Assembly (NCBI RefSeq): GCF_026413145.1
Contig: NZ_JAOVYZ010000015.1
Coordinates: 1-37,876 of the forward strand
Source: Limosilactobacillus kribbianus
GTDB lineage: Bacteria > Bacillota > Bacilli > Lactobacillales > Lactobacillaceae
Direction: 5' to 3'
Length of the DNA: 37,876 bases
Of this stretch, positions 1-25,089 are shown piece after piece; positions within the stretch are counted from its first letter, which is position 1, and every line of letters starts with the position of its first letter. The notes under the pieces were generated by a model. That model did not search any database and was not told the DNA's origin. It was given only the letters and a program-made list of their open reading frames with translations. The translations under genes were made by a program, and so were the position numbers.

Positions 1-102
1 ATGCATCGTCGGAATAACATTCCTCGCAAGTCATTGAACTACCGCACACCACTTGAAGTATTCATGAAGCACGTCACCGATGAGCAACTAGCTTTTTTCT
101 AA
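1..102 (+). mobile_element. IS30-family transposase, C-terminal remnant
   Basis: The first 34 codons are open from the window edge to TAA at 100-102 and include RRNNIPRKSLNYRTPLEVF, which resembles the C-terminal end of IS30-family transposases. The rest of the element lies outside the window. The sequence just after the stop (about 103-121) should be the terminal inverted repeat, because the cas9 reading frame on the opposite strand stops making homologous protein there. The transposase stop overlaps the last codons of the truncated cas9 frame in antisense. The exact IS boundary and target duplication cannot be seen. Family assignment is from recognition of the C-terminal motif only. Confidence 0.75.
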
Positions 103-3100
103 CTTAATTTGACATTTCGGGTCATATAAAAAATTAAATTGGTTGAACTTAAATCGCTGTTTAGTGTCTTTTTCAAAGAACCGTTGATATTTCCCATAAA
201 TAAAGTAAGACTGCAAGCCTGAGTAACGGTGGTACAGATATTGACCGACAAATGCGCTCAGGTACCCATCTACCGCATGGTGATAATCGTTCACATCACG
301 GTTCTTATAGAGGTTAAGCGCTTCACGCAACTGGTGATTAAGCTCTGCCTTAACTTCAATAATCTGCGTGTCGTCCTTCTCATAGCGACTCGTGAGAATA
401 TTGGCCGCTAATTTAATTACCTGACGTGTCTCAACCAACTGCCGATTAATAAATCCATTAGCTTTATACTTATCAATTGAATCAGGATCAGTCATCAGAT
501 TATTACACTTTTTCTTACTAATCAGCCGATGGTCGGCAAGTTTCTTCCAAAGAGGCTTCATTTTTGAGCCGAACATCCTCAATGGAACATTATTCGATTT
601 ACCATTATTAACTGGCCGGCTAACCAAGACTTTGTTATCTAAGGAGTCGTCTTTGAGGAACGCCTGCGGAAGAATATGATCAATATCGTATTTAGTTGAA
701 ATTTCATCAATGTTGATTGGCTCGCCGGTGTACATATCACGACCCAACTGCGTAAAGTACAGGAAGAGACGATCATTCAGGTCCTTAACATCCCCCAATT
801 CTTGGTGAACCCTTTCATTAGCAACTAACTCTTTAGCGGTTGTTTCGTAAATGTCTTTTAACTTTGCTAACCGCGATTGGGTCCGGTGAGAGCGCTGATC
901 CTCCCGGGCAAACTCCAACGAGATGAACTTTGGCGCTCTGCCCGCGGCCCTGACAATATCATCGACAACCTTAACCACTTGTCGAATTGCTTTTTTGTTC
1001 TGCGGCGAAGTATATGCATCAGCCAAAATCGACTCGTAGTCTTCATCATTGATCTGGTCCTGGTTGGCATTCTTAATTTGTTCAGCAAAGACGGGCTCGT
1101 TAACAATCTCCATAAAAGTGCACTGCGTATTCCACATCAGGCCCAGAATGGACTCACCCTTCTCATTTTTCAGCCCACAAAGAAGCTTCTTGGAAAGTCG
1201 TCCCCATCCCTGATATCTTTTTGCGATTAAATCAGTAATCTGTTCTTTAGTCAGCCAGTTTATTTCCCGGAGTTTGGTTTTTAAGATGTTCTTATCTTCA
1301 AAAACGGTAATCCATTCAATAATTTGTTCGAAATCATTCTGCAAATTTGGATCATCGATCTTTGCACCAAAAATCTTCTTAAAATCAATATAGGTACCAA
1401 AGGAATTATTGAACTTCACCGGGTCAGACAACCCCGTTATTATTGGTCGATTGGCCATCCCCTTTGAAAGCAGGTTAGCCAATTGCGAAGCCTTCACGGT
1501 CTTTTTAGCCTTAAAGAGCTTTTCAAATGCCTCCTGTTTTTCGCCTACTTCTAATTTACTGCCATTTACACGCACCATGTTTAGTTCGTTTAGCACTTTA
1601 AAACGTTCGTATAGAAGACTGTGGTCAGGTAAAACATCTTCCCCAATTAAATACGTATCCTTGGTCGTCATCCGCTTTATGAACTGGTTAGCCGATTCAG
1701 TGCGATCAACTTTTTCGTCAAAATTCCATGGCGTAATCTTACCTGGCGCTTTTCTAATCATCCACGCAAAGCTCTTGCCCGAAGACTTCTCCTGATCTTC
1801 TTTGGTGATTAACGGGCCAACATAGTAAGGAATGCGGAAAGCAACCAGTTCACTTAACTTGTACTTAGCCCTGCTTTGACGCTGCTCATTTGGATTTGGC
1901 TCGGCAAGCCAAGAGTAGTATTTGCTTTGGTTTTCAATAATTTTTTCTAGTTCTTTTAAATGTAAATGCAGCTGGTAAGGAATGACACCATTCTGATTGG
2001 TCCGCTGCTTGGGCATAAACTGATTTTGATCAATCAATGCCTTAATCTCCTCTGCCAGTTGAGTATTATTTAAGGAGCGCTTTACAACTTTATAGAAGTC
2101 ATCTTGACTGGCCGTCCCTGACTTCTTTGTTGAATTGCCAACGTACTCTGCATATGCTTCCATCACTTCAGAATACGTCTTTCTATCTAAGGACTTGGCA
2201 TACTTTTTGAGCATCTCCAGGTGATTCTTGTGAGCATCATATTTTTCAATCATTGACTCGCTGAGAGTTTGTCCGCTTGGCACAATATCATTTAGAGTGA
2301 TTTGAGAATATAATTTAGATAAAAGATCTAATATCGTCAGTTGTGGTTCATTTAATTCGCCAGTCAATTCTGCTAAAGTGTCGTCGATATTCTCATCGCT
2401 GAGCTGAATTTTCCACTTATTTTTATCTTCAGTAGTTATTTTTAAGACTTCAGCTAAGTCAAATTTGTACCCTAGAATGGCCTTACTTATTTGCTTAGCA
2501 ATGCTTAAATTTAACTTATCCAGTGATTTATCGCCCAAAACGACATAGAGAATTTTGGCAATCTCTTTTTGCTTATCTAAAGTGGCCGTGCTACTATCTA
2601 GCAGTTTCTGAGCAATTGCATCCGTCTTCTCAAGATTAATTTGAAACGGCGCTACTGGATCAATCTCGTCAAAAGCATCGTTGATTGACTTAAAGTCTTC
2701 CTCAAAATTGATTTTGTCAGTGCTGAATTTTGAAACTGGCAAATTATTCAAGAAATTACCCCGGTATTTCACAATGTGGTGAATCGCTAAGAAAATCTCT
2801 CGAAGGTCAAACTGCCGATCGTCATTCATCAGATGATACCGCAAGTGATAAATGGTTGGGTATTTATCATAAAATGCACTGTCGGTTTCATCGGGGAACA
2901 ATAGAGAACTTGAAAACCACTTTTTGCTATCCTGAGGTGACAAATTAGATTCTTTCAAGCGTGCAAAGAAGGTTGGGTCAACCTTTGCCATATACGGATC
3001 AAAGATTTCCTCGAGCAAAGAAAGCCGCCACTTCCGCCGCTTGAGCCGCCGCCGGGTGGTTCTGAAGCCACGCCGCTCTGCAGCCGTTGTTCCTTTCTTA

Positions 3101-3225
3101 AATAAGCGTGCCCCGATCACTGTCTTTCCCTTTAAACGGATTGGTCGATATTTTTCATCAATTGCTGAAAAGCCGACCGAGGTTGCCCCGATATCGAGGC
3201 CAATAGAATAATCACCCTTATACAT
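88..3225 (-). CDS. cas9: Type II Cas9 endonuclease, C-terminally truncated by IS30 insertion
   Basis: RNA-guided DNA endonuclease of the SpCas9-like (type II-A) kind. RuvC-I has IGLDIGATSVGF with D11. An arginine-rich bridge helix lies around residues 50-75. RuvC-II has ISLEFARED with E771, the HNH domain has YDIDHILPQ with H850 followed by GKSNNVP, and RuvC-III has HHAVDGYL with H983 and D986. Both nuclease centres look intact. Homology ends near NFLYD (about residue 1035), and the last 10 residues are encoded by IS DNA. Family members run to about 1370 residues, so the end of RuvC-III and the whole PAM-interacting C-terminal domain are missing. The start ATG has a strong AAGGAGGAG site. No array, cas1/cas2/csn2 or tracrRNA was found here. 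DNA targeting is probably abolished; a residual RNA-binding or regulatory role is only speculation. Confidence 0.93.
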   Translation of the reverse strand: MYKGDYSIGLDIGATSVGFSAIDEKYRPIRLKGKTVIGARLFKKGTTAAERRGFRTTRRRLKRRKWRLSLLEEIFDPYMAKVDPTFFARLKESNLSPQDSKKWFSSSLLFPDETDSAFYDKYPTIYHLRYHLMNDDRQFDLREIFLAIHHIVKYRGNFLNNLPVSKFSTDKINFEEDFKSINDAFDEIDPVAPFQINLEKTDAIAQKLLDSSTATLDKQKEIAKILYVVLGDKSLDKLNLSIAKQISKAILGYKFDLAEVLKITTEDKNKWKIQLSDENIDDTLAELTGELNEPQLTILDLLSKLYSQITLNDIVPSGQTLSESMIEKYDAHKNHLEMLKKYAKSLDRKTYSEVMEAYAEYVGNSTKKSGTASQDDFYKVVKRSLNNTQLAEEIKALIDQNQFMPKQRTNQNGVIPYQLHLHLKELEKIIENQSKYYSWLAEPNPNEQRQSRAKYKLSELVAFRIPYYVGPLITKEDQEKSSGKSFAWMIRKAPGKITPWNFDEKVDRTESANQFIKRMTTKDTYLIGEDVLPDHSLLYERFKVLNELNMVRVNGSKLEVGEKQEAFEKLFKAKKTVKASQLANLLSKGMANRPIITGLSDPVKFNNSFGTYIDFKKIFGAKIDDPNLQNDFEQIIEWITVFEDKNILKTKLREINWLTKEQITDLIAKRYQGWGRLSKKLLCGLKNEKGESILGLMWNTQCTFMEIVNEPVFAEQIKNANQDQINDEDYESILADAYTSPQNKKAIRQVVKVVDDIVRAAGRAPKFISLEFAREDQRSHRTQSRLAKLKDIYETTAKELVANERVHQELGDVKDLNDRLFLYFTQLGRDMYTGEPINIDEISTKYDIDHILPQAFLKDDSLDNKVLVSRPVNNGKSNNVPLRMFGSKMKPLWKKLADHRLISKKKCNNLMTDPDSIDKYKANGFINRQLVETRQVIKLAANILTSRYEKDDTQIIEVKAELNHQLREALNLYKNRDVNDYHHAVDGYLSAFVGQYLYHRYSGLQSYFIYGKYQRFFEKDTKQRFKFNQFNFLYDPKCQIKLEKS

Positions 3226-3341
3226 GCGAAACTCCTCCTTATATTTTATAAAAATATTCTTATTACTTTTATCATATCAAAAAGAAAGCGGGTACACCAT
3301 CCGTTGCCTTATTAAAAAAGAATTTTTCAACATTAAACATG

Positions 3342-3379
3342 CCCCACCCTCGTTCGACGACAGCCAAACGAAGGTGGGG
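3342..3379. terminator. Strong hairpin between cas9 and the membrane-protein gene
   Basis: A 15-bp stem with two mismatches pairs 3342-3356 with 3365-3379 (CCCCACC at one end, GGTGGGG at the other) around an 8-base loop. It lies just after the stop of the minus-strand membrane-protein gene and before the cas9 promoter region. The T-tract is weak on either strand, so it may be a terminator or another RNA structure. No anti-repeat or tracrRNA-like sequence was recognised in the remaining bases up to the cas9 start. Confidence 0.5.
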
Positions 3380-3400
3380 TACTTATTTCCTATATTAATT

Positions 3401-4150
3401 TCAAAGCCGCACAACCAAATTAACCAGCAGCGACCAACAGATTGCGACCGCCATCACCATCCCAAAGGCCGCCAGCAAGGCAATCAAAGCGTGTTGAATC
3501 AACGCCGCCTTGCCCAGCAGGATCAGGACGAAGAGGATCACTCCCACCAGAATATACAGGGTGACCGCGGCCGGGAGTGCGTTTTTGAGGTCGGCATTAC
3601 TAAGGTCAAAGCCGCAGATCGTGATATTGACCGACAGCAGGACCCAGATGATCACAGCGCCCCAGTGCAGCGGTGCGCTCGCGGGAACGGTCGCAGTTAA
3701 GGGATAATTGAGCGCACTCCCAATTGTCTGCAGGCCCCACCAGTAAATCGCCGGCACCAGCCACCTGGTCAGCAAAATTAGTACCGCGGCACATCCATAG
3801 ACTGGCGCCGTCCCGATCAGCGCGTTGCCGAGAAACTGGTAGTAACTTCCCTTATTCCAGGAATGATTCACGTAGCCCAGCGTCCCGCCGTCATCCGGAA
3901 CGTTTGTGATCAGTAAACGGAAGTCATTGATCCGGTGACCAAAGAGCAGGGCCATGATCAGGTGACTGAGCTCGTGGAAAATCACGCCGAGCCCGCCCAA
4001 CCAAACCACGGCCCGCGCACCATACCGGCTTGCCAGGCGCTCCTTGGAATTACGGTTGATGAAGGTTAGACCGAGAACTATCACTAGCGGGACCAGCACG
4101 AGCATTAGCAAGTAACCAGCCGTAGTCTTTAGATCTGATGTTAGGTTCAA
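3401..4150 (-). CDS. Polytopic membrane protein with HELSH motif (M50-like)
   Basis: A 249-residue hydrophobic protein with about six predicted membrane spans. A first span (about residues 11-30) is followed by a segment containing VIFHELSHLIMALLFGH near residue 58. HExxH inside a hydrophobic segment is the zinc-binding signature of M50-type intramembrane or membrane-associated metalloproteases. A later GNALIGTAPVYG stretch could contribute to the same fold. I do not see a clear NxxPxxxxD second motif, so protease activity is unproven. The reported start is TTG, with GGTGAGG very close upstream; no better ATG was found. It stands alone between two hairpins, next to cas9, and nothing in the context indicates a substrate. 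Confidence 0.6.
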   Translation of the reverse strand: MNLTSDLKTTAGYLLMLVLVPLVIVLGLTFINRNSKERLASRYGARAVVWLGGLGVIFHELSHLIMALLFGHRINDFRLLITNVPDDGGTLGYVNHSWNKGSYYQFLGNALIGTAPVYGCAAVLILLTRWLVPAIYWWGLQTIGSALNYPLTATVPASAPLHWGAVIIWVLLSVNITICGFDLSNADLKNALPAAVTLYILVGVILFVLILLGKAALIQHALIALLAAFGMVMAVAICWSLLVNLVVRL

Positions 4151-4226
4151 GTCCTCACCGCCCTTCGTTTAATACCACAATCATAATCGCTGCCAACCAG
4201 TAGCGCAAATTTTAACCCTACAACTC

Positions 4227-4262
4227 AAAAATCTCCCAGCAAAATTCTGCTAGGAGATTTTT
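4227..4262. terminator. Bidirectional Rho-independent terminator
   Basis: The stem AAAATCTCC-AGCA / TGCT-GGAGATTTT is followed by T-rich sequence on both strands. It closes the minus-strand transcription unit that carries the SDR remnant and the PLD-ATPase gene. Confidence 0.8.
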
Positions 4263-4269
4263 AATTTTT

Positions 4270-4594
4270 CTACCGCACCATGGCGGAGCCACCATTAATG
4301 GCAATCTGCTGCCCGGTAATATAGTGGGCAGCGTCGGAAGCCAGAAATACTAACGCCGGCGCGATATTCTTCAGCGGATCGCCCAGATATCCTAACGGAA
4401 AAGCCTGTCCCATTTGTTTTTGGACCTGTTGCTTCAACTCTGGTGTGACTTTTTTGCCCCTTCAGCACCGTCGAGCGTCCACGCCGTTGGCAAAGAGAGC
4501 GAACCGATACCTTTCCTTTTGGGTAGGCACGCAATTCATCTTCTAAGGCCGCACTAAGCAGCTGCCATGTCATTTTGCTTCGTCGATTTTCCAT
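4270..4594 (-). pseudogene. Decayed short-chain dehydrogenase/reductase (3' part only)
   Basis: Reading the minus strand from about 4460 to the TAG at 4270-4272 gives an intact SDR C-terminus ending with YITGQQIAINGGSAMVR, the usual last strand of classical SDRs. Upstream of an A-rich run near 4455 the frame changes, and fragments in other frames (DELRAYPKG, then GAEGAKK) continue the homology for a short distance. The N-terminal Rossmann half with the Gly-rich loop and the YxxxK catalytic region is absent. The remnant begins a few bases after the PLD-ATPase stop, which suggests that the accessory gene inserted into or replaced the 5' part of the SDR gene. It is not expected to be functional. 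Confidence 0.75.
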
Positions 4595-4610
4595 CTACCA
4601 ACACTTCCAA

Positions 4611-6884
4611 TCATTTTCTCTTCTTTAGCCAGCGCCAAAATGAGCTTGGCGGCAGCGGTGCCCCAATCCACTTGCAAAACTCCCTGGCCTTGATTTCCGC
4701 AATCCCGTCCTTGGCCGAGCCAATTAACAGTCTTGGCGGAATAGCGTCCGAATACTGCTTAATTGGATTGCTTCTGCGATCATTACTAGCGATTCGATTC
4801 AGATCAACATAAAAGCGATTATTTCTGGTCTCATAATTAAAGAGTGGCTGCCTCTTGTGCGCATCTTCGTGATAAAGTTTTCGCCAAACACTCTTATTTT
4901 GAAAATCAGCATCATTCAGCTTTTCGGTGGGAAAATAGGCTGGCACCTGCCGACCGACTCGCCGATAGTAGGCCTTAAAAATCGACCGCGTAATGGACAA
5001 GGGGTCTTCACGCAACTGATTAATCATCGCGCTGTTTTCGTCCTCACTATTACCAAGTTCATCTAATTTTTTACTGATTTGAATAATGAAATCACTAAAT
5101 AGTTTAGTGTCAAGCCGTTTTTTGATGGCGTTAATGTTATCAGAAGCCTGCCGTGCCCTTCGCGGATCCTCTTTGATATTTGGAAAAGCCTGATTAAAGG
5201 TTAAGGAATAGACCCGTCGCTGGGCTGCGGAGTCGAGGCCATACACATCAAAGTTGGTCGTCGCAATCAGCGCTGGGGTCGCTTTGGGGTTCCCCTTGTA
5301 GGCATTCGACACCCGTTTAATTAGGGTTGACCCATACTTATCCTGCTCATAAAAGTCAGACTGGACTTCATCGATAAAGATTGGCCAAACATTATCTTCA
5401 TCGGCCATCCACTTACTCAGCTTTCTAATTCGATCGGCTTTGACCGTTTTCTTCGCACTGCTGGCAATATCCGTGTCGTATGCCAATGCCGTTTCATGCA
5501 CCGAAAATAGGCTCACCATCTCAATCAAGATCTGCTGCAGTTCCGACTTGCCTGAACCCCCAATCCCGTTGAGAAACAAAAATAGCGGCAAATTATTCCG
5601 ATCGCTTTCGGGGTACAGCGCCCCGATCTCGTACAGAAAGGGCGCCGTAAAAGTATAGAGAATTGCTTCATAAACCCGCATGCCATAGTTATTCGTAAAG
5701 CGAGCATCAACGATCCAATCGCGGTATGAAGCAATGAGATCATCAATCACCTCTAGCGCCGTAGCAATATCGTCGCTTGAAGCTTCCCGACCAATCGGTT
5801 CTAGTGATTTATTTGCCGGATTATAAATGAAAAGCCCGCTGATGTTTTTAGCCAGATTCCGTTCGACCGGACACGACTTATACAAGGTGCGGTGGCGCTT
5901 AAGATCGCTCTCAGCCTCCTCCTGGTCCGTAACCCGGCGCACTTTCAGATACTTAGTGATCACCTTGTTAATCTGACGGGGCTTTTTAATGACCGGTTGC
6001 TTGTTGCGGGTCGTAACCGCCTCATGCGTGATTTTATAAACCGTTGTCGCATCCTGAAGGCTCTCTTTTGCTAAATCTAAGACCTTGAGATTACTAGCCC
6101 CGGAGTCCTTAAGGTCATCAATAATCTTCGGGGAAAGGACCTTTGAATCTACTTTGGCGCCAATATCTGCTAAGTTTTCCGCAATCCCCTCGGCTTTGAC
6201 CAGTTCGGTCTGCTCAACATCCAAAACAACGGGAGCTTTTTTCTTTACTGCATCCCCGATTTTCGCATCATTAATCTTCAACAATTCATCGGGAAAGTAG
6301 CTATGACAAATTTTCTTAATGTGGCTTTCATAATAATCCTGATATTTCTGAAACAATTTCGAATTGTCCCAGATCATAATATCTTCCAATTGGTGGGTTT
6401 GACTGTTAAAAGCCTGGTCTGAGAGGTTGGCCGAGCCAATAATCAGTCGCTTCTCAGTGGTTGCTGAATTGCTAAGCAAGTAAAACTTGGAATGAATGAT
6501 GTAACCAGTCGGTACCAAGAATGAGTAGGCCGTCCGCAAGCGCTTTTTAAGATTGTTCGAAAGCTCATTGTAATGGTCAAGTGGTTCGCCTTCTAAAGCG
6601 TTCTTTACAGAAGAAAAGATCGCCATCTTCGAAATCGCTTCCTGCGCCTTGACCTGCTGGATATTCTCTTGAATTCCAAGCACCAGTTCAAACTTTTTGA
6701 AATCAGAAAAATACTTACTAATAAACCTTCCCGATGCAGAATAGGTCACACCGGTAAATGTGTCAAAGCGCCGACTGTCAAAAATATCTGGAACAGTAAT
6801 CTGGGAAACATCCTCTCCATTAATCAGAACATGCAGCGAATTAAGATCATCGGGTTCACCAAGGAGTGAAGTTTGAGCATTCAT
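4611..6884 (-). CDS. PLD-type nuclease / P-loop ATPase fusion protein
   Basis: A 757-residue two-module protein from the chosen ATG (MNAQTSLLGE). Residues about 35-190 resemble a restriction-endonuclease-type phospholipase D domain, with HSKFYLL (H131, K133) followed by GSANLS (S151, N153) and an acidic residue in QLEDIM. This is one HxK catalytic half, so a dimer would be needed for a full active site. A charged linker occupies about 200-330. The C-terminal ATPase has Walker A GIGGSGKS (440-447), Walker B PIFIDE (501-506), a sensor-like ATTN (541-544) and a possible arginine finger in AQRRVYSL (R556/R557), as in AAA+ or superfamily 3 helicases. The frame stays open upstream to TTG 7055 and ATG 7028, but that part encodes a terminator-like hairpin and lacks PLD homology. 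Nuclease plus ATPase beside a broken cas9 suggests defence; this is inference. Confidence 0.72.
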   Translation of the reverse strand: MNAQTSLLGEPDDLNSLHVLINGEDVSQITVPDIFDSRRFDTFTGVTYSASGRFISKYFSDFKKFELVLGIQENIQQVKAQEAISKMAIFSSVKNALEGEPLDHYNELSNNLKKRLRTAYSFLVPTGYIIHSKFYLLSNSATTEKRLIIGSANLSDQAFNSQTHQLEDIMIWDNSKLFQKYQDYYESHIKKICHSYFPDELLKINDAKIGDAVKKKAPVVLDVEQTELVKAEGIAENLADIGAKVDSKVLSPKIIDDLKDSGASNLKVLDLAKESLQDATTVYKITHEAVTTRNKQPVIKKPRQINKVITKYLKVRRVTDQEEAESDLKRHRTLYKSCPVERNLAKNISGLFIYNPANKSLEPIGREASSDDIATALEVIDDLIASYRDWIVDARFTNNYGMRVYEAILYTFTAPFLYEIGALYPESDRNNLPLFLFLNGIGGSGKSELQQILIEMVSLFSVHETALAYDTDIASSAKKTVKADRIRKLSKWMADEDNVWPIFIDEVQSDFYEQDKYGSTLIKRVSNAYKGNPKATPALIATTNFDVYGLDSAAQRRVYSLTFNQAFPNIKEDPRRARQASDNINAIKKRLDTKLFSDFIIQISKKLDELGNSEDENSAMINQLREDPLSITRSIFKAYYRRVGRQVPAYFPTEKLNDADFQNKSVWRKLYHEDAHKRQPLFNYETRNNRFYVDLNRIASNDRRSNPIKQYSDAIPPRLLIGSAKDGIAEIKAREFCKWIGAPLPPSSFWRWLKKRK

Positions 6885-6950
6885 TGAAATTACCCGCTTT
6901 CTTGTCTTTCGGGAAAAATAACAAATCCATATTCCTGCCTCTGCTCGCCA

Positions 6951-7003
6951 TGTCAAAAAGTAAAAGCTCAGAGCAACGGTTGGTAACCACTGTTCTGAGC
7001 TTT
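6951..7003 (-). promoter_or_regulatory. Hairpin and candidate promoter upstream of the PLD-ATPase gene
   Basis: AAAGCTCAGA at 6963-6972 pairs with TCTGAGCTTT at 6994-7003. On the minus strand the hairpin is followed by TTTTACTTTTTG, as in a Rho-independent terminator. It runs into TTGACA (plus coordinates 6951-6956), a consensus -35, although the -10 sequence 17 bases on (AATATG) is poor. A terminator followed by a promoter here would support the internal ATG at 6884 as the real start. The 268-base gap up to the flavoprotein stop holds nothing else that I recognise. Confidence 0.45.
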
Positions 7004-7110
7004 CAAGTTGCGGTGTCACTAATTTCATTATGCTAGTTTGTTCCTTTTTTCTCAACTAATTAGCATTTGCTGATCAAATATCTCTTTTCTACCCTTGTAA
7101 TATTCATTCC

Positions 7111-7142
7111 AAAAAAGCGGCCCCACCAGCAGGTCAGGCCGC
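7111..7142 (-). terminator. Rho-independent terminator of the flavoprotein gene
   Basis: GCGGCC pairs with GGCCGC (7117-7122 with 7137-7142) and is followed on the minus strand by six T. It lies 11 bases after the flavoprotein stop. Confidence 0.8.
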
Positions 7143-7152
7143 CCTTTTCAAA

Positions 7153-8583
7153 TTATTCCTCGACGATGTGTTGAACCGCGTTTCGCCCGGAGAAGCTGGC
7201 GTAACCGGCCGTCGATCCCGGCAGGGTCACGGCATAGGTATCGCCAACCATCATCCCCGCAGCATCGTTACCGATCACGTACAAACCACCGATCGGGTAG
7301 CCGTAATCGTTCAAGACCCGGTTGCAATTGTCAACCCGGATGCCGCCAATTGCCGCCGCAATGCCGACCCCCAGTTCAACTGCATAGAACGGGCCGTCCG
7401 TGACCGACGTCAGATACTTGGCATCCTTGCCGTAGTCGGTATCGATCCCCGCCGCTACCAGCTGATTGTAATTCTGAATCGTCTGTGGCAACTTAGCCAG
7501 GTGCAGTTTTGCTGCCAATTCGTCAATCGTCGCCGCACTCGTTAAGAAGCGCTGGTGGCTGGCCAGGTCGGCTTTAATTTCCTCCGGCAGTTTAGCAAGC
7601 TTGTCCGGTGAAACCGGTGAGTTGCCAACCTTCTTGTATAGGCCGACCTTCTCCAGGTGGTCAACCGCCGCCTGGTCAAAGATCGAGTAGACCTTGGACT
7701 GGGTCAAGATCGCGTTTCCCGCATTGCACATGTTGTCATTGACGTCTTCGTTAATAAACCGTTCCCCCTGCTCGTTGACCCACAGGATTGCCTCCTGGGT
7801 GGCAGCCGCGCCCAGCTCTGAACCCATGTACATAAAGGCCGGTTTCATTGGGTCATAGATAAAGCCACCGCCGAACTGTGGGGCACCAAGGGAGGCGTGC
7901 TGGCCGCCAGCCTGCCAGGCCAGCTTCAGGCCATCCCCGGTTGATTTTCCGTCACTGACCGTCATCAACCGCGAACTGTTGACTAGCTGCTTCATCAGTT
8001 GCGGATTATCCGCGTAGCCACCGGTTGCCAATAGAACGTGCTTGGTCAGGAAGGTCTGCTCAAGCCCCGTTGTTTCATTCTTCGCCACCAAACCCTGCAC
8101 CTGACTATCCGTACTGAGAATCCGCTGAGCCGCAATGCTGGTCAGAAATTCAACGCCCAGGTCCCGGGCCTTTTGTTCCAGCACCTGAACGGCCGCGTGA
8201 CCACCACCGGTAAAGGCGTGGATGGTCGGCCAGCTGTCACCCTGGGCTCCAACACCAGCAAATTCAACGCCCAGCCGGTGCAGCCAGTCGATCGTCTCGC
8301 CGCTGTGGTCAAAATAGTGCTTCAGGTGAGCGGCATTGGCCTCATAATGGGAATAATCCAGTTCGCTCTTGAGCACCGCCAGCTTATCAATCTTGATCCC
8401 GTGCTGCTTTTGCAGGTACGAATCAATACCGAGGGCTCCTTCAACATAGTTTCCGTTACCACCAATCGTCCGGCCTTTTTCCAGCACCAAGGTCTTTAAA
8501 TGGTGGCTGCCAGCTTCCACCGCGGCACTCAGCCCGGACAAGCCGGCACCGACAATTACCAAGTCATACTGTTTTTGCTCCAT
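7153..8583 (-). CDS. FAD-dependent fumarate-reductase-type flavoprotein
   Basis: A 476-residue soluble flavoprotein of the FAD-binding 2 family (fumarate reductase / succinate dehydrogenase flavoprotein type). The N-terminus has the dinucleotide-binding motif VIVGAGLSGLSAA followed by an acidic strand end (LVLEKG). Further family features are the FAD contact VLLATGGYADN in the middle and GGIRVDNCNRVL plus GLYVIGNDAAGMM near the end. No haem-binding or membrane domain is present, so electrons would come from a soluble partner or bound flavin. The ATG at 8583 has AAGGAAGTG eight bases upstream; the frame could begin three codons earlier at GTG, which is less likely. A frameshifted TetR gene lies just upstream on the same strand and may have controlled it. 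The substrate (fumarate, or another unsaturated acid such as urocanate) cannot be told from sequence alone. Confidence 0.85.
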   Translation of the reverse strand: MEQKQYDLVIVGAGLSGLSAAVEAGSHHLKTLVLEKGRTIGGNGNYVEGALGIDSYLQKQHGIKIDKLAVLKSELDYSHYEANAAHLKHYFDHSGETIDWLHRLGVEFAGVGAQGDSWPTIHAFTGGGHAAVQVLEQKARDLGVEFLTSIAAQRILSTDSQVQGLVAKNETTGLEQTFLTKHVLLATGGYADNPQLMKQLVNSSRLMTVSDGKSTGDGLKLAWQAGGQHASLGAPQFGGGFIYDPMKPAFMYMGSELGAAATQEAILWVNEQGERFINEDVNDNMCNAGNAILTQSKVYSIFDQAAVDHLEKVGLYKKVGNSPVSPDKLAKLPEEIKADLASHQRFLTSAATIDELAAKLHLAKLPQTIQNYNQLVAAGIDTDYGKDAKYLTSVTDGPFYAVELGVGIAAAIGGIRVDNCNRVLNDYGYPIGGLYVIGNDAAGMMVGDTYAVTLPGSTAGYASFSGRNAVQHIVEE

Positions 8584-8679
8584 CTTCAGCACTTCCTTTT
8601 TGTATTTGTCTTCACAATACCGTATTTGGAAGCAAATTTGAATTTACACTTTGGTCTTTTTGTTCAGGTCGCCTATAAT

Positions 8680-9185
8680 TCATTTGCCCACCTGGATTAA
8701 GTCCGCCAAGTAACGGGCAAAATCCGGAATTGCCACCTGCATGTCGTCCTTGATCCAGCGGGAAACCGCCATCGCCGAAAGGTAGATCGTATAATCCTGA
8801 GCCATGGCATGGTAAGTGCCTTGACGGGAGACCCCCACCAAATTTTTCATTGCCTGGTAGAAAATCTCGACGACGATCATTCGGTCACGGTCATCAGTAG
8901 TGTTTTCAAAGAAGGCGTGGTGGTCGTAGACGCAGGTCAGAAATTCGGTATAGACCGCCAGATAGTCCGTACTAGTTTTGAGCCGCTTAAAAATCGGGCA
9001 ATATAGTAGCGCCAGATCCACTCATAGATTGCGTAAACATCCGTGAAATAAGTATAAAAAGTCGTCCGCGAAACCCCGGCCCGGCGGCAGACTTCCGTCA
9101 CGGAAATTCGCGACAGGGGACAGGCCTTCAGCAGCTCTTCTGTACAGGCAACAATTCTCTTCTTAGTTGTTAGCGATGTCCCCAT
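8680..9185 (-). pseudogene. TetR-family regulator, frameshifted
   Basis: The first frame (from ATG 9185) encodes a TetR helix-turn-helix: RISVTEVCRRAGVSRTTFYTYF, which I give only in part here as the recognition region VCRRAGVSRTTFYTYF, followed by YEWIWRYYIARF. The homologous C-terminal ligand domain continues in the neighbouring frame from FKRLKTSTDYL to the stop at 8680-8682. The join falls in a run of five T (minus strand) near 8990-9000, so one inserted or deleted base explains the break. The gene is otherwise complete at about 168 residues, close to small TetR/DhaS-like regulators. Decay is probably recent, or a sequencing error is present. It lies upstream of the flavoprotein gene and probably regulated it. 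Confidence 0.8.
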
Positions 9186-9232
9186 CCGCTTTTCCTCCTT
9201 TGCTCTGATCTTACCATTGTTTGCGTGATTCC

Positions 9233-9241
9233 TGTTATAAT
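9233..9241 (+). promoter_or_regulatory. Extended -10 promoter for the 9275 gene
   Basis: TGTTATAAT is an extended -10 (TG at 9233-9234, TATAAT at 9236-9241), 33 bases before the ATG. No good -35 is visible, which is normal for extended -10 promoters. The divergent frameshifted TetR gene starts 47 bases to the left. Confidence 0.6.
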
Positions 9242-9274
9242 GACAAGTGATTCTTAAAAGAAAGAAGCACCAAG

Positions 9275-9529
9275 ATGGCTCTTACCCGTTACATTTACAC
9301 CGTCCAGGAGGTCGACCTGACCTTTGAGCAATTGCCGAGCGTCAAGACCTTCGAGTACCAAAATGACGCCAGTGATTACTTCGACTCCCGGATCACCGCA
9401 CTCCAAAAGCAGTTCCCCGAAGCCGACGAAACAGCCCTCGATGACTTCGACGCGGCCGGGGTTTATTGCGACGATCAAGGGGAAAGCAAGTACATGATCA
9501 TCCTGCAACGTCAGGAATTACTCTCCTAA
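9275..9529 (+). CDS. Small acidic hypothetical protein
   Basis: An 84-residue soluble protein that I do not recognise. It is acidic overall, with a DETALDDFDAAG cluster near residues 51-62, no signal peptide and no membrane segment. It begins with ATG behind AAAGAAGC, a weak ribosome binding site, and an extended -10 promoter lies 33 bases upstream. The DUF554 gene follows 76 bases later with its own candidate -10, so co-transcription is possible but not required. Codon use and GC are like the neighbours, and the frame is clean, so it is probably a real gene of unknown function. Confidence 0.6.
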   Translation: MALTRYIYTVQEVDLTFEQLPSVKTFEYQNDASDYFDSRITALQKQFPEADETALDDFDAAGVYCDDQGESKYMIILQRQELLS

Positions 9530-9563
9530 AATGCTGGCCAAGGCTCCCTAGCCCGCTAAAATC

Positions 9564-9572
9564 TGCTAAGAT
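9564..9572 (+). promoter_or_regulatory. Extended -10 promoter for the DUF554 gene
   Basis: TGCTAAGAT (TG at 9564-9565, TAAGAT at 9567-9572) lies 33 bases before the ATG. GGGAGGAAAA just ahead of the ATG is the ribosome binding site. Confidence 0.45.
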
Positions 9573-9605
9573 TAAAGGAGCATTAAATTTGGGAGGAAAA
9601 TATTC

Positions 9606-10298
9606 ATGATCGGAACCTACGCCAACACCTGCGCGATCCTGCTCGGCACCAGTATCGGCTGCCTGCTCAAGCGCGGCATCAGCAAGAAATACGAAGAGGC
9701 CCTCTTCACCGTGATGGGTCTGGCCGCCCTGGGAATCGGGCTGGAAAACGTCATCAACAATATGCCCAAGAGTCACTACCCGGTCCTCTTCATCGTCAGC
9801 CTCGCCATCGGGGCCCTGATCGGCACCTGGTGGAACCTTGACGAGCGTTTTGCCCGCCTAATCAAGCACTTCGGTGGCAAGTCCCAGCTGGTTAAGGGAT
9901 TGGCCACCGGGATCTTACTCTGCTGCATCGGCGCCCTCTCGATCGTCGGCCCCGTCATGGCGGCGGTCCGTCACGATTCAACAATGCTCTTCACCAACGC
10001 GACCCTCGACTTCGTCACCACCATGGTTTTCGGGGCCAGTTTCGGCTGGGGAATGCTCCTGGTCGCCCCGGTCCTCTTCTGCTGGCAGGGTGGAATCTAC
10101 CTGGTCGCCAAGTACCTCTCGGCCGATTTTTTCACCGGCCCGCTGGTCACCGAGATCGCAATCGTCGGTGGCTTTTTGATCGCCACCACCGGGCTTTCCC
10201 TGCTGAAGATCAAGGAGATCAAGACGCTCAACATCTTGCCGTCCCTGCTCGTCCCGGTGATTTTCTTCATCATCAAGGACCTCACCGGCCTGTTTTAA
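9606..10298 (+). CDS. DUF554 family membrane protein
   Basis: A 230-residue integral membrane protein of the DUF554 (YdfK/YqgA-like) family. Six or seven hydrophobic segments span the chain. Typical family features are the N-terminal GTYANTCAILLGTSIG, the ALGIGLENV stretch, the ALIGTWWNLDERF segment, LLCCIGALSIVGP and a small-residue-rich FGASFGWGMLL helix. Length agrees with the family. The start ATG is preceded by GGGAGGAAAA. Function is not established for the family; a transport role is often guessed. A bidirectional terminator follows directly. Confidence 0.88.
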   Translation: MIGTYANTCAILLGTSIGCLLKRGISKKYEEALFTVMGLAALGIGLENVINNMPKSHYPVLFIVSLAIGALIGTWWNLDERFARLIKHFGGKSQLVKGLATGILLCCIGALSIVGPVMAAVRHDSTMLFTNATLDFVTTMVFGASFGWGMLLVAPVLFCWQGGIYLVAKYLSADFFTGPLVTEIAIVGGFLIATTGLSLLKIKEIKTLNILPSLLVPVIFFIIKDLTGLF

Positions 10299-10305
10299 AA
10301 CCAAC

Positions 10306-10350
10306 AATGGATCAGCACCCGTCAAATCGCGTGCTGATCCATTTGTTTTT
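10306..10350. terminator. Bidirectional terminator between DUF554 and phosphatase genes
   Basis: AATGGATCAGCAC (10306-10318) pairs perfectly with GTGCTGATCCATT (10331-10343) and is followed by TGTTTTT. It serves the convergent genes on both sides. Confidence 0.9.
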
Positions 10351-11002
10351 AAATGTCGAATTTGTGGTTGTACTCCAGTAGCTTAATGTGCCGATCAGAC
10401 GCCTCAATCGTCGTTACGCCGGCGTTAACCGGGAAGTTGCCGACCGTATCCACGCCCAGCGCGTCGGCGATCGTCCGAATGAAGGTCCCGTGGGTCACCA
10501 GTAGGATTCGGTCGCCGTCATTTGATTTCTTAATCATCCGACGAATTCCCCGCCGCCACCGGCTGACAACCTCTTCATAACTCTCAGCTTGACCGGTCGG
10601 GTCCATGTCGTGCATCATATTCCGGCCCGCCTCCAGGCTCTCGTGGCGGATGATGTCGTCGTGGTCCTGGTAGCCGTGCTGCATGGCAATCGCCCGCCAG
10701 TTGGCCTCGGAGTCCAGCCCCTCAAAGTAGCCGAAGAAGACCTCGCGGAAGGTCCGATCAGTATAAATGTCAGTTGGCTTGTGCTGAAGCTGGCTAATGA
10801 TCAGATCCCGCGTTTCAACGGCCCGTTTCAAATCGGAGGACACGACTGCACTATAAACCCGGTCCTTCAACTCCCGTCCGGTCGTCAGGGCCTGTTGCTT
10901 GCCGTGATCGTCCAGTTCAAAGTCAATCCAGCCCTGGGCCCGGTTCAAGGTGTTCAAAAAGGTCTCTCCGTGACGGACAATGTCTACCGTAATCTTTGTC
11001 AT
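10349..11002 (-). CDS. Histidine phosphatase family protein (phosphoglycerate-mutase-like)
   Basis: A 217-residue member of the histidine phosphatase superfamily. The catalytic histidine lies in IVRHGETFLN near residue 11. The second arginine of the phosphate pocket is in SSDLKRAVETRD, the acid is in FREVFFGYFEG, and the second histidine is in LLVTHGTFIRT. Together these make the 2H phosphate pocket. Length and motif spacing fit small broad-specificity phosphatases (PhoE / GpmB-like) rather than the glycolytic dPGM. It starts at ATG behind AAAGGATC, with TGCTATGAT (extended -10) about 35 bases upstream on the same strand. It appears monocistronic. The substrate cannot be assigned. Confidence 0.88.
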   Translation of the reverse strand: MTKITVDIVRHGETFLNTLNRAQGWIDFELDDHGKQQALTTGRELKDRVYSAVVSSDLKRAVETRDLIISQLQHKPTDIYTDRTFREVFFGYFEGLDSEANWRAIAMQHGYQDHDDIIRHESLEAGRNMMHDMDPTGQAESYEEVVSRWRRGIRRMIKKSNDGDRILLVTHGTFIRTIADALGVDTVGNFPVNAGVTTIEASDRHIKLLEYNHKFDI

Positions 11003-11100
11003 TTCATCCAGATCCTTTCCAATCTAAATCCGTTCTAATCATAGCACGCTAACCGCAATTTTACCCACCCAATTTGAAAATCCTGCAACACAAAATTCGG

Positions 11101-11128
11101 TTGACATTTCAAACAGATCTCCTAAAAT
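11101..11128 (+). promoter_or_regulatory. Sigma-A promoter of the Ldh_2 gene
   Basis: A consensus -35 TTGACA (11101-11106) is separated by 16 bases from the -10 TAAAAT (11123-11128). The start codon at 11176 is preceded by GAGGAGA. Confidence 0.75.
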
Positions 11129-11175
11129 AATGATAATTAAATTAAAATAAAATGAGATTGAGGAGACGGTATATT

Positions 11176-12261
11176 ATGCGAATTCAAGTCGAAGATGAGC
11201 GTCAATTTTTACAAAATGTTTTTGAAAAGCTGCATTTTTCGTCCGCGGACGGGGCATTGCTAGCCGATACCCTGGTCGACGCCGACCTGCGGGGAATCTC
11301 TTCCCACGGGATCCAGCGACTGGCCTGGTACCGCCGGATGATTAAGGACGGCACGATCGACCCGATCAAGCACGCTAGGGTCGTTCGTGAGCTGCCCGGC
11401 AGCGTTCTGATCGATGCCAACCAGAACATGGGCCAGCTGGCAGCCGTTTTGGGAATGAAGAAGATCATTGAAAAGGCCAAAAAGACCGGGGTCGCCGTAG
11501 CTGTGGTCCGCAATTCCAACCACTTCGGAATTGCTGGTTACTACAGCCGGATGGCCCTGGATGCCGGCTTGGTCGGGATCGCTTTAACTAACACCCGGCC
11601 GCTGGTAGTTCCGACCAACGCCACCCAGGCTTTCCTCGGCTCTAACGCCTTTGCCTTTGGCTTCCCGGCACAACCGCACCCGTTCATGTTCGACGGTGCC
11701 ACCTGCGTCGTCTCCGGCGGAAAGATCCAGGTTCACTCCAAGAAGGGTGACGCCCTGCCCGGCGAATGGGTCGTCGACGGCAAGCGCGAGCTAGTCACCG
11801 ATTCCGATGAGGCTGAAGACATCCTCGCCACCGCCGCCTTCACCGAGGGCGAGCAAAAGGGTGGCGGGGTCCTGACCCTTGGTGGCAAGGATGAGGTCAA
11901 CGGCAACTACAAGGGGATGGGCAATTCGATCGTGATCGAACTTTTGACCGGGATCCTCGCCCAGGGTTCCATTTCCGCCAATACCGTCAGCGGCAAGCAC
12001 GACTTCAGCCAGTTTCTCTTCGTCCTTGACCCGTCTTTCTTCGGTGACCCAAAGGTGCTGGAAAAAGACGCCACCAGCATGCTCGACCGCATTCGTCAGC
12101 TCGACCACATCCCCGGCAAAAAGATTTGGATCCCTGGTGACCGTGAATACCGCCTCCTGGATGAAAACAAGCAGCGCGGTGTCAGCGTCGATGACAAGAC
12201 CTACGATGAGATGAAAACGATCGGCGAAGAGCTGGACGTGACTGTTCCAACCGAAGCCTGA
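11176..12261 (+). CDS. Ldh_2 (malate / L-lactate dehydrogenase) family oxidoreductase
   Basis: A 361-residue NAD(P)-dependent dehydrogenase of the type-2 malate/L-lactate dehydrogenase family (MdhB, YlbC, ureidoglycolate dehydrogenase relatives). The family signature DLRGISSHGIQRL, holding the catalytic histidine, lies at about residues 40-52. VVRNSNHFGIAGYY and the NTRPLVVPTNA segment form the nucleotide and substrate pocket, and GNYKGMGNSIVIELLTGIL matches the conserved KG..L helix. The frame runs eight codons further upstream, but ATG 11176 has the ribosome binding site (GAGGAGA) and sits 48 bases past a consensus -10. It is monocistronic, with its own promoter and terminator. The true 2-hydroxyacid substrate is not evident. 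Confidence 0.88.
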   Translation: MRIQVEDERQFLQNVFEKLHFSSADGALLADTLVDADLRGISSHGIQRLAWYRRMIKDGTIDPIKHARVVRELPGSVLIDANQNMGQLAAVLGMKKIIEKAKKTGVAVAVVRNSNHFGIAGYYSRMALDAGLVGIALTNTRPLVVPTNATQAFLGSNAFAFGFPAQPHPFMFDGATCVVSGGKIQVHSKKGDALPGEWVVDGKRELVTDSDEAEDILATAAFTEGEQKGGGVLTLGGKDEVNGNYKGMGNSIVIELLTGILAQGSISANTVSGKHDFSQFLFVLDPSFFGDPKVLEKDATSMLDRIRQLDHIPGKKIWIPGDREYRLLDENKQRGVSVDDKTYDEMKTIGEELDVTVPTEA

Positions 12262-21710: not shown

Positions 21711-22251
21711 AATTCAAATTTTGAATCATCTTGGCGGGAACTCCCGCGACCACCGTATTCGGCGCAACATCGTGAGTGACAACAGCTGCGGCAGCCACAA
21801 CGGCACCATGGCCAACCGTGACGCCGGGAGTGATGGTGGCCCCAGCACCGATCCAGACATCGTCTTCAATCACGATCGGTCCCAAGTTGAGGACGTGTCG
21901 ATCGCGCCTGGCAATGGCATCGAGCGGGTGGTTAACCGTCAGAAGCTGGACATTAGGTGCAATTAGGACGTTGTCACCAATTGTGATGCCGCCAAGGTCG
22001 TCGAACATAGTGTTGATGTTGATAAAATCATTCTTGCCAAAACGGGTATTGTGGCCATAATTAGTCAGCCAGGGCAGGCGAACAATGGTTGTCGGGTCCA
22101 GCGGATGACCAGTAATTTTAGCCAGCAAGGACCGGGCCTCCGCCGGTGAGTGCTGCTCATGGTTTAACTGGAAAACTAGCTGTTCATTATCCCGGACGAT
22201 GGCATCCATCCGTTCACTGTCTGCTGCGGATGTGTGTTGTTTGGTGTTCAT
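21709..22251 (-). CDS. Sugar O-acetyltransferase (maltose/galactoside acetyltransferase-like)
   Basis: A 180-residue left-handed beta-helix acetyltransferase of the Maa/LacA family, which transfers acetyl from acetyl-CoA to sugar hydroxyls. The N-terminal helical region is followed by [19 protein letters not shown], which includes the substrate-facing segment. Hexapeptide repeats then run from [15 protein letters not shown] onward, through the catalytic-His block [28 protein letters not shown] and [10 protein letters not shown]. Length is close to the family norm of about 185. The ATG at 22251 has GGAAGGTGA upstream. It is monocistronic; the role is probably detoxification of non-metabolised sugars, as proposed for LacA. 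Confidence 0.9.
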
Positions 22252-22310
22252 TATTAATCACCTTCCCAATCTTGTCTTAATTATACCCTGATCCTATAGT
22301 CCTTTAAGCA

Positions 22311-22340
22311 AAAAGAGAATGCCTCGTTGGACATTCTCTT
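22311..22340 (-). terminator. Terminator of the fructansucrase gene
   Basis: AAGAGAATG pairs with CATTCTCTT and is followed by TTTTTGC on the minus strand. Confidence 0.88.
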
Positions 22341-22360
22341 GGATGATTAGTAATTTAAAC

Positions 22361-24928
22361 TTAGTAGCGACGCTTCTTTTCAGTTAAGCCAAACATTCCA
22401 AGGAATGCTGCCGCAACAAGCCCCATTGCAGCCGCTGAATTATCATTTCCTGTCTTTGGAAGAGCCGGGGTGCTTGGTTGAACAGGGTTAGTTGGCTGAC
22501 TTGGCGTATTCGGTGTTACTGGCGTCGTCGGATTGCTTGGGCTGACCGGTGTTGTTGGTTGACTCGGTTCACTCGGTGTTACTGGCGTCGTCGGATTGCT
22601 TGGGTTGACCGGCGTTGTTGGCTGACTCGGTTCACTTGGGTTTACTGGCGTCGTCGGGTTGCTTGGGTTAACCGGTGTTGTTGGTTGACTCGGTTCACTT
22701 GGATTTACCGGCGTCGTTGGATTACTTGGGTTGACCGGCGTTGTTGGTTGACTCGGTTCACTTGGATTTACCGGCGTCGTTGGATTACTTGGGTTGACCG
22801 GCGTTGTTGGCTGACTCGGTTCACTTGGGTTTACCGGCGTCGTTGGATTACTTGGGTTAACCGGTGTTGTTGGTTGACTCGGTTCACTTGGACTTACCGG
22901 CGTCGTTGGATTACTTGGGTTGACCGGTGTTGTTGGCTGACTCGGTTCACTTGGGTTTACGGGAGTTGTCAGCTGTCCCCATTCTCCAGGAAGAGCAGCA
23001 CTATTCTTAGCATTTGGATCAAGCACACCAAACATCTCATCATTATTGCTACTGTTATCCCAGATCCAATCACCTTGGTTAGTCATTCGGGCAAGGACTT
23101 GAGTCGTATTATCTGAATTGATCTGAACCAGGTAACTTGGTGCCCATGTTGAGTAATTACCCTCACCGGCTGCAAAACCACGATTAGTCATGTATGAAGT
23201 AATGAGAATTTGATCTGAATGGCCGTTAACTGGAACAGCATAGTATGAATACGTGGATGTCCGCCAATTAGAAGGTACTGAAGCAGTTAAGACAACTCCA
23301 GAACCGTTCAGCGGAGTATATGTTCCCAACAGTGAATCAGCCACGTAACCAATCATCGCTACGTTATCCCCAACTGCTTTATTGTCAGCACTAGTTAACT
23401 CAGTATCACTCCCACGGCTAACACGAGTAGCCGAGAACAGGTAGTATTTATCACCAAGTTTGACGATATCAGGGCGCTCCAATTCGTCACTTACCATCAA
23501 TGACGTAATCAGTGGTGAATAAACTGTCTCAACTTGCGGATTGGTTTGATCATTTGTCAGCTTAAGAATGCCAAGTGCACCGTTTGCCAGACTTGCCAGC
23601 ATATTGTCATTTTTGTTATTGAGAAGCTTGAAGAAGCTCTTCAAATTGAAGGCGTCATCGCCACCGTAGTTTGACCAGTTATAAATTTGATTTTCATCCT
23701 GGTAGTTTTCGCTCCCAGTATTTCCTTCAAATACGAGGTAACGATCACCATTTTCAAGCTGAACAACATGCCCATCACGCAAGCAATAGTCATCATTGCG
23801 CATTCCAGCGCCACTTACAAATTGCTGATAAGTCTGATAATGAACGCCGTCTCCTTGAAAAATAATATGATTATCGGTCACATTCTTAATCATAACCCCT
23901 TCACTATTCACATCTAAGTGAAGCGTAGCAGTTGCTAACTGTTGATCATTAATTTTACCGTTCGACGTATCGTTTACCGTATAGAACAGCTGAATCGATC
24001 CATCATTATTTACAATGGCAGATCCAGACCATTCTTGCAGATCTGACTTTTCATTATATCCAAAGATTGAACCAGCATTCCGCCAATGTGAAAAATCATT
24101 GTCACCATACTTGTTGTAAAGAAGGTAAATATGATTATCATTTTCGTTCGGGATACCCATCATTGCAATTACAAGCTGGTAGCCATGGTAGTTGGAAACA
24201 TATCCTGTAACTGCGTCCTGAACTGGCCATGAATCCCAAATATCCAGTTTTGCAATTTGCCCGGTTTGTGCATCACGGGTAACAGCAGCAGGCATATTTT
24301 TAATTTGACTAGCATTAAAATACGGAACTGCATAACGTATATCTTTTTTGATGATTGCATTTCCAATTTCGGTTAGATCATGGAATGTCATCTTAGTTCC
24401 ACTCTGCGATGACTGAGAGAAATTGATCTTATTTAGTTCCTTAATCTGATCAGCCGTCAGCTTATTAGCATCCACGCCAGCCTTGGCAACTACTTCAGCG
24501 GCCTTTTTATTCAGTTGAGAAGACTCGTTTACCTGTGACTGTCCTTCTGCTTTAGGACTGACTTGACTTGATGAAACTGCGGCACTCTTTGTAGAAGGAG
24601 CATTGGTAGTGTCGTCCTGGTTAGTCGTGGCCGTCTTAGCGGCCGTATCAGGCGCTGCAGTGCTCGAATTATTGTCCTGTGCAGTATTTTCAGTAGCAGT
24701 ACTTGGAGTATTTAACACGACCTGATTGCTACTATCTTGCTGGGTCGAAGAATTCGTAATCTCAATGTTTTGACTAATGACGCTGCTGTTAGCATCCGTC
24801 GTTTCATCAGCTGAAACATTGGCCTGCCCACCTACGATTCCGGCAACTAAAGCGGCGGCTGACAGGGTAACTACCACCCAGTTTTTCCCGCTCTTGTACA
24901 TCTTCTTGTGTTCCTTCCGTTCGATCAT
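22361..24928 (-). CDS. GH68 fructansucrase (inulosucrase/levansucrase), LPXTG-anchored
   Basis: An 855-residue secreted enzyme that cleaves sucrose and polymerises fructose. Residues 1-40 are a signal peptide with KMYKSGKNW, cleaved after NVSA. A Ser/Thr-rich variable segment runs to about 140. The GH68 five-bladed propeller carries the nucleophile D232 in WDSWP, the transition-state stabiliser D385 in LRDGHV and the acid/base E484 in DELERP, at nearly the same spacing as in L. reuteri Inu and Lev. Seven 21-residue Pro/Ser/Thr repeats follow at about 657-803, then LPKTG (823-827), a hydrophobic stretch and KKRRY for sortase attachment. Inulin versus levan product cannot be told by reading. 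ATG 24928 gives the [10 protein letters not shown] start seen in relatives. A LacI-type operator lies downstream of the promoter. Confidence 0.93.
22520..22960 (-). repeat. Seven tandem 63-bp repeats in the fructansucrase wall-spanning region
   Basis: The repeat encodes [21 protein letters not shown] with minor changes (VS, VT). Four central copies are identical in protein and nearly so in DNA. A degenerate eighth unit (VTPNTPSQP...) adjoins the LPKTG motif. The in-frame 63-bp period allows length change by slippage without loss of the reading frame. Confidence 0.92.
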
Positions 24929-24953
24929 GCCGATGTCTCTTTCCAGTCAATGT

Positions 24954-25012
24954 TAAACGTTTAGCAATTGTTTTTCATTGACCAAAATATCACAAACTTC
25001 GTTAATTGTAAA
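24954..25012 (-). promoter_or_regulatory. Fructansucrase promoter and LacI-type operator
   Basis: On the minus strand TTTACA (25007-25012) and TATTTT (24984-24989) are 17 bases apart. TAAACGTTTA (24954-24963), a perfect palindrome with central CG inside GTTAAACGTTTAGC, lies just past the expected transcription start. This is the form of a LacI-family operator; it does not fit the CcpA cre spacing well. Confidence 0.55.
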
Positions 25013-25089
25013 TAATTTCTTCACATCTTTTTCAAACTTAAGGCAACACTCTTAACAACAAATTCTTTGATTGAAGTCCACTTCAATTC

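Follow-up and report, generated by a model that had tools for sequence, protein, structure and literature searches.

A phospholipase D nuclease–AAA+ ATPase fusion of the AgaP family in Limosilactobacillus kribbianus and a genus-core paralogue with an altered nuclease site

A 37,876-nucleotide stretch of Limosilactobacillus kribbianus (contig NZ_JAOVYZ010000015.1 of assembly GCF_026413145.1, positions 1 to 37,876; hereafter the window) carries a gene for a 757-residue protein that joins a phospholipase D (PLD) nuclease domain to an AAA+ ATPase domain in one chain. Judged by its sequence, this protein is a member of the family of AgaP, the PLD partner of haloarchaeal Argonautes in the APAP (pAgo-PLD) system described by Cheng et al. 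2024 (PMC11442185). As a system, the window gene is not APAP because no Argonaute was found beside it. We give about even weight to the reading that it encodes an Argonaute-free, self-contained DNA-degrading effector built like AgaP. Limosilactobacillus genomes also carry a separate core copy of the family, in which the nuclease site is altered in nearly every case. The window gene and its parts are as follows.

4611..6884, minus strand: PLD nuclease–AAA+ (Cch/SaPI-Rep-like) fusion gene, AgaP-family member, 757 residues (label P0002)
6309..6581, minus strand: part of the PLD domain (residues 102-192), with the PLDc_2 and RE_NgoFVII matches and residues H131, K133, S151 and N153
5085..5774, minus strand: AAA+ ATPase region (about residues 371-600), with Walker A (440-447), Walker B (501-506) and R556/R557
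4614..4646, minus strand: basic/hydrophobic tail SSFWRWLKKRK, in the position where relatives have kkGFWaRLFG, a tail that resembles the MinD membrane-targeting sequence (a likeness only)

The initial annotation, which left the strand unstated, had read this open reading frame as a PLD half-site in front of Walker A and B motifs. The frame is real, and Pfam, our alignments and a structural model all bear out a PLD nuclease plus P-loop ATPase with the motifs at those positions. The ATG lies at 6884, and the frame stays open upstream to a TTG at 7055. Residues 102-192 score 30.8 bits for PLDc_2 (cut-off 27) and 28.6 bits for RE_NgoFVII (cut-off 23.8). The half-site has the form HxK(x)16GSxN (H131, K133, S151, N153), with 16 residues separating K133 from G150, while Walker A reads GIGGSGKS and the Walker B stretch PIFIDE. 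In a 20-row alignment (A1), S151, G445, K446 and R557 are invariant and H131 is conserved at 90% or more; in a 37-row alignment (A2), all five are invariant. Together with the Pfam scores, this conservation shows that the motifs are not a chance occurrence. Searches with the ATPase half returned a weak match only, to TIGR01613 primase_Cterm (E 0.0046). For the whole protein, the PDB gave P-loop, weak PLD and chance matches only, and PHROGs a single match (E 0.05). No anti-phage system model in PADLOC-DB 2.0.0 matched strongly, the only match being ZacB (E 2.5e-4, 18 bits, residues 68-161).

The link to AgaP extends over the full length of the protein. AgaP is required, together with Argonaute, for plasmid restriction and is toxic through H105, K107, G157, S158 and N160 (PMC11442185). 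We identified it as the 717-residue protein L104, encoded 64 bp behind the Piwi gene of Natrinema pellirubrum plasmid pNATPE02, because all nine residues named in the paper occur there at the published numbers (PMC11442185). In trees AgaP groups with seven haloarchaeal relatives that form a separate alignment (A3, which does not include AgaP itself), and it matches one of these, the N. zhouii protein, at 33% over 97% (E 1e-101). Comparison of A2 with A3 by hhalign gave a probability of 100 and an E of 3.8e-50 over 631 columns, from the PLD domain to the tail. H131, K133, S151 and N153 of the window protein align with the H, K, S and N of AgaP, which also has a P-loop, GESNGGK (447), and a VVVDD stretch. 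The architecture common to both consists of PLD, linker, P-loop domain, C-terminal region and basic tail. The initial annotation knew of no named system with this order of domains; that stands for the lone gene, but the homologous AgaP shares the architecture (PMC11442185).

AgaP and the window protein differ in the spacing of their motif and in their surroundings. AgaP has HxK(x)49GSxN, whereas the window protein lacks this split of about 50 residues. The split is absent also from four of the seven A3 relatives, two of which lie beside Piwi (L036, L105), so it is not general in the AgaP family. APAP includes an adjacent long-A Argonaute gene, whereas the window gene is bacterial and no Argonaute domain was found among its neighbours scanned. 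Among 19 haloarchaeal plasmid relatives, seven have a Piwi gene within about 0.7 kb and the other 12 have none near in the search used; Argonaute is therefore an optional neighbour. On the N. zhouii plasmid the family member directly follows the Piwi gene. Two haloarchaeal AgaP relatives with no annotated Argonaute nearby (L108, L109) share a cluster that includes genes for UvrD, a PD-(D/E)XK nuclease, ThiF, a DEAD helicase and RNase-H-like proteins; it may be a defence cluster without a name as yet.

An AlphaFold model gives more insight into the ATPase. Its best structural matches in the PDB are Cch of the staphylococcal cassette chromosome mec (SCCmec) and SaPIBov1 Rep of the Staphylococcus aureus pathogenicity islands (SaPI), with the SaPI5 primase-helicase lower. 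The AAA+ core of the model presents Walker A, Walker B and arginine-finger-like residues in the Cch/SaPI Rep fold. In the model the window ATPase is thus most like the Cch/SaPI-Rep helicases, and a helicase function is predicted. Sequence identity to these proteins (PDB 5dgk, 8tch, 7ola) is 9-15%, and the surroundings of the window gene show no recognisable SCCmec or SaPI element. To our knowledge, they have no PLD domain. For the N-terminal part, the top-ranking folds include NucT and NgoAVII R, and also FAM83 and PLD3. With the NgoFVII, NgoAVII, BfiI and NucT nucleases, in which we know of no AAA+ domain, the window protein shares the RE_NgoFVII domain and a single half-site. NgoFVII/BfiI-type restriction enzymes pair with a DNA methyltransferase, whereas none was found among the window gene's neighbours scanned, which cover part of the open reading frames in the window. 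SauUSI, an ATP-dependent type IV restriction enzyme (PDB 7clg), combines an SF2 translocase with an SRA-like domain for modified bases; in contrast, the window ATPase is of the AAA+/ring type, and Pfam found no SRA-like modified-base domain.

A mechanism for such an effector can be proposed. The C-terminal two thirds would assemble on DNA as a Rep/Cch-type AAA+ ring helicase, and subunit assembly would pair the PLD half-sites, as in BfiI/NucT-type enzymes. Once loaded, the DNA, most probably that of a plasmid-like or other invader, would be cut without a metal ion, and the protein may be anchored to the membrane by its short C-terminal tail, which is basic and hydrophobic. For the window protein we infer ring assembly, a DNA substrate, metal independence, a role in defence, membrane tethering and independence of a partner. 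The hypothesis of a tail that tethers the protein to the membrane comes from its composition: 43 of 52 members have a charge of at least +2 and at least four F, W, I, L or M in the last 12 residues, as do 38 of 647 neighbouring proteins, a contrast inflated by related rows. The hydrophobic moment of the tail is not above controls. The kkGFWaRLFG that ends most core copies resembles, as a string of residues only, the membrane-targeting sequence KGFLKRLFGG at the tail of E. coli MinD (PMC5471200).

Counting the window's own genome each time, searches for the family recovered members from 34 of 397 genomes of the same taxonomic family, 9 of 395 of the same order (two partial) and 12 of 398 of the Bacillota at 43 bits or more (one in two pieces). 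A raw Bacillota tally of 53 of 398 is inflated, as 41 of these match the P-loop region only (26 bits or less). A profile scan of species genomes recovered 44 loci, most of them in Limosilactobacillus, Ligilactobacillus, Weissella, Anaerococcus and Peptoniphilus, with further members in Arcobacter, Carboxydothermus, Desulfonatronovibrio and a Poseidoniales archaeon. Ten plasmid records match the family, including that of N. zhouii, and several members lie on contigs longer than 1.6 Mb. A third, very divergent subfamily (about 24% identity) occupies another locus in several Limosilactobacillus genomes (L164-L168, in G414, G411, G413, G423 and G262, and L056). A phage origin was considered and rejected: 50,697 phage records held no relative of the window protein, and none of the 30 stretches matched in IMG/VR is related, in a search that reaches close relatives only. 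The initial annotation had named phage replication modules as the place where homologues would speak against a defence role, and within these searches they are not found there.

It had also suggested looking for homologues near defence genes, and some are indeed so placed. In Clostridiaceae BRH_c20a a family member adjoins pglZ and brxL, in Carboxydothermus one adjoins brxD/brxH-like genes, and on an Athalassotoga plasmid one adjoins a methyltransferase and helicases. A PADLOC scan covered 111 of 176 candidate neighbours at 20 of 25 loci, the other five being near-duplicates, and passed over the longest genes and those farther away. It matched 51 families, with BREX-type matches at two loci among the 25 families listed; RmrA, MTase_II, mad2 and PDC-S58 also matched among the bacterial neighbours, without assignment to loci. 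Members thus adjoin Argonaute in some of the haloarchaeal plasmid records and BREX genes at some loci, but defence enrichment of the bacterial neighbours was not demonstrated (111 neighbours, 20 loci, no control set).

The family has a second face in Limosilactobacillus. A family match is present in all 50 genomes of the genus searched, 41 of 41 near-complete ones included, and by tblastn a core copy separate from the window copy occurs in 49 of the 50 (again 41 of 41 near-complete), with none recovered from G406, which is 82% complete. This gene, an 'ATP-binding protein' in NCBI (e.g. AYP99570.1), belongs to the window gene's family at 27-31% identity, with its PLD site altered in 48 of 49 copies; the one copy that keeps the full set of H, K, S and N is that of G418. 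K133 is replaced in 44 of the 49 (R in 38, H in 5, Q in 1, with K kept in 5), N153 by D in 24, H131 by Y in 7 and S151 by I in 1. In the ATPase, 48 of 48 core copies retain G445, K446, D505, E506, R556 and R557, the 49th being a fragment. Outside the core clade, H, K, S and N are kept in all 31 members read, window copy included; this count leaves out split copies and the third subfamily.

Ratios of nonsynonymous to synonymous substitution (dN/dS, NG86) indicate that the altered form is under strong selection. Across 28 close core pairs, many of which share genomes and are non-independent, the medians are 0.031 for the PLD domain, 0.019 for the linker, about 0 for the ATPase and 0.004 for the C-terminus. 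With a PLD median this low, the domain is not decaying as a whole, despite its catalytic losses. One further core pair gave 0.037 overall. Five pairs with an intact site gave 0.06-0.09 overall, 0.03-0.07 for the ATPase and 0.07-0.14 for the PLD domain; the core ATPase, at 0-0.02 per pair, is thus more constrained than theirs. In trees the core copies come together as a single, long-stemmed clade (SH-aLRT 100), and the window copy sits on a long branch outside it. This placement and an identity of about 30-32% speak against the window copy as a recent duplicate of the core copy, but an approximately unbiased (AU) test does not reject joining it to the core clade (p 0.37). The core paralogue looks like a domesticated pseudonuclease with a putative housekeeping role that has lost the nuclease and retained the motor and the PLD-shaped part, and the change of Lys to Arg could in principle leave some nuclease activity. 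A literature search, with supplements outside its scope, found no described function for the gene.

Core loci often have an adjoining gene of a blast cluster assigned to the DNA/RNA non-specific endonucleases (Endonuclease_NS by Pfam, one member scanned), as at L062, L067, L068, L070, L076, L078, L086, L089 and others. Of 20 named core loci, 12 have this gene at most 2.3 kb upstream, and in three of the 12 it is on the opposite strand. It is farther off in two and absent from six, four of which span less than 3.3 kb upstream.

The window copy falls in a segment that the nearest genus relative found (G417) does not have. The features around it are these.

4164..9228, no strand: segment of about 5 kb missing from G417, which has 147 bp there instead
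4270..4594, minus strand: 3' remnant of a short-chain dehydrogenase (SDR) gene, frame broken, N-terminal half missing
1-3225: type II cas9, broken, its C-terminus cut near codon 1035
6962..7004, minus strand: leader hairpin of 20 pairs, upstream of the window gene's ATG

The flanks of the segment in G417 are 87 and 92% identical, and the aligned window pieces overall 79-94%. The segment holds the SDR remnant, the window gene, an FAD oxidoreductase and a TetR_C_8-like regulator fragment (below cut-off); between its ends, no repeat longer than 13 bp was found among the ten best matches. The low GC content and the abutting half-deleted SDR reported in the initial annotation are both borne out: GC is 0.45 here against 0.527 for window positions 9229-37876, and the C-terminal SDR reading (...GQQIAINGGSAMVR, then a stop) terminates at 4270, with further stops upstream. 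The cas9 that it called dead does start 1.4 kb away and has a broken C-terminus, but no loss of catalytic motifs is evident by eye. Homology of this cas9 to a 1372-residue relative ends at position 122, and positions 1-121 are a repeat found at 15 places in the same genome, the window included (13 at contig ends; C18 and C37 unchecked). A putative insertion-sequence end, for which no transposase was identified, is the likely cause of the break. At the corresponding place G417 has an unbroken cas9 with cas1 and cas2. The defence-like position claimed for the gene fares poorly, since the other 15 window proteins scanned belong to metabolism, transport or regulation or have no assignment (e.g. 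levansucrase, lactate dehydrogenases, sugar kinases) and the cas9 is broken. The position of the window copy is accessory, and no defence island was found.

The leader hairpin is present in a single copy in the genome and has a U-rich 3' side; it lies between a promoter-like site (7055-7027) and the ATG, and may be the upstream gene's terminator or an attenuator. Folding of the whole leader gave a z of -1.56 against shuffles, 16 of 200 of which fold equally well. Promoter-like sites are not commoner than in shuffles, and an Rfam scan of positions 1-12000 found no family at gathering score. A second segment unaligned to G417 (21716-25087) carries a low-GC levansucrase (GH68) gene with a KxYKxGKxW signal.

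Several observations weigh against a self-contained nuclease effector. What is fixed across the genus is a strongly conserved form of the family that no longer has the full set of nuclease residues and whose PLD domain is still constrained; because of this, the family has at least one role besides canonical DNA cutting. No relative found exceeds 36% identity to the window copy, so that its own function could differ, and dN/dS is not measurable for it because no close homologue was found. The predicted TM-score of the model, 0.55, makes the packing of the domains uncertain. Clear defence neighbours were placed at two of the 20 bacterial loci scanned, without a control set, and the window proteins scanned include no defence gene besides the broken cas9. 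The core copies lend themselves to another reading, in which the protein is a housekeeping helicase or translocase whose ring ATPase does the main work, on DNA or in connection with the membrane, the PLD domain being nucleic-acid-binding or structural and the window copy a diverged second version. The presence of the core copy in 49 of 50 genomes with ATPase residues kept throughout, a PLD site intact in a single copy but still constrained, and the outcome of the AU test all fit such a motor. The window copy, however, retains H, K, S and N and lies in a segment missing from G417, and members are rare outside the genus (the 12 Bacillota genomes above), and we regard a housekeeping motor as unlikely, though the chief rival of the effector reading.

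Nor is the nuclease effector the only reading that the ATPase allows. The structural matches to Cch, SaPIBov1 Rep and the SaPI5 primase-helicase, together with the weak TIGR01613 match, would suit a helicase that initiates the replication of a plasmid, island or phage satellite, or the relic of such a helicase, in which PLD replaces a primase or relaxase. Relatives on salivarius plasmids lie a few kb from replication-initiator genes, and one on an Arcobacter plasmid adjoins parA/parB, but these plasmids carry separate annotated replication initiators. The phage searches, which in IMG/VR reach close relatives only, returned no relative, no integrase or capsid domain occurs in the window proteins scanned, and several members sit on the long contigs mentioned above. 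We consider this reading improbable; the mobile-element relic proposed in the initial annotation survives mainly as the likely origin of the ATPase domain. A membrane enzyme with phospholipid as its substrate (a true phospholipase D, or one of cardiolipin type), held by its C-terminal tail, would draw on the PLD fold, the tail composition and the likeness to MinD. We think it very improbable, as nucleases make up the curated PLD families nearest to the window protein, the top N-terminal folds include NucT and NgoAVII R (though also FAM83 and PLD3), the tail's hydrophobic moment does not exceed controls and the homologue AgaP restricts DNA (PMC11442185). The nearby cas9, and the cas1 and cas2 that adjoin its unbroken counterpart in G417, could suggest a component of the type II CRISPR locus; an accessory role of this sort is unlikely in the extreme because G417 has all three cas genes and lacks the gene's 5-kb segment.

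The AgaP-type family, so far known from print only as an accessory of Argonaute in haloarchaea, may be a widespread, Argonaute-free bacterial family that was domesticated in one genus through loss of the nuclease's catalytic residues, with the window genome carrying both a pseudonuclease and a separate, catalytically intact version. In this account, to which we hold tentatively and with slightly less than even confidence as a whole, the genus-core gene would be an unrecognised core gene under near-total purifying selection, possibly encoding a membrane-linked ring motor. AgaP itself, described as a PLD protein in a main text that does not use the terms ATPase or AAA (PMC11442185), gains by homology a predicted ring-helicase-like half. 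This suggests that the Argonaute partner could degrade plasmids through the loading of a helicase-nuclease. Relatives of AgaP are present in bacteria with no Argonaute seen beside them, and the pseudonuclease gene that runs through Limosilactobacillus (L. reuteri, L. fermentum and others) is strictly conserved.
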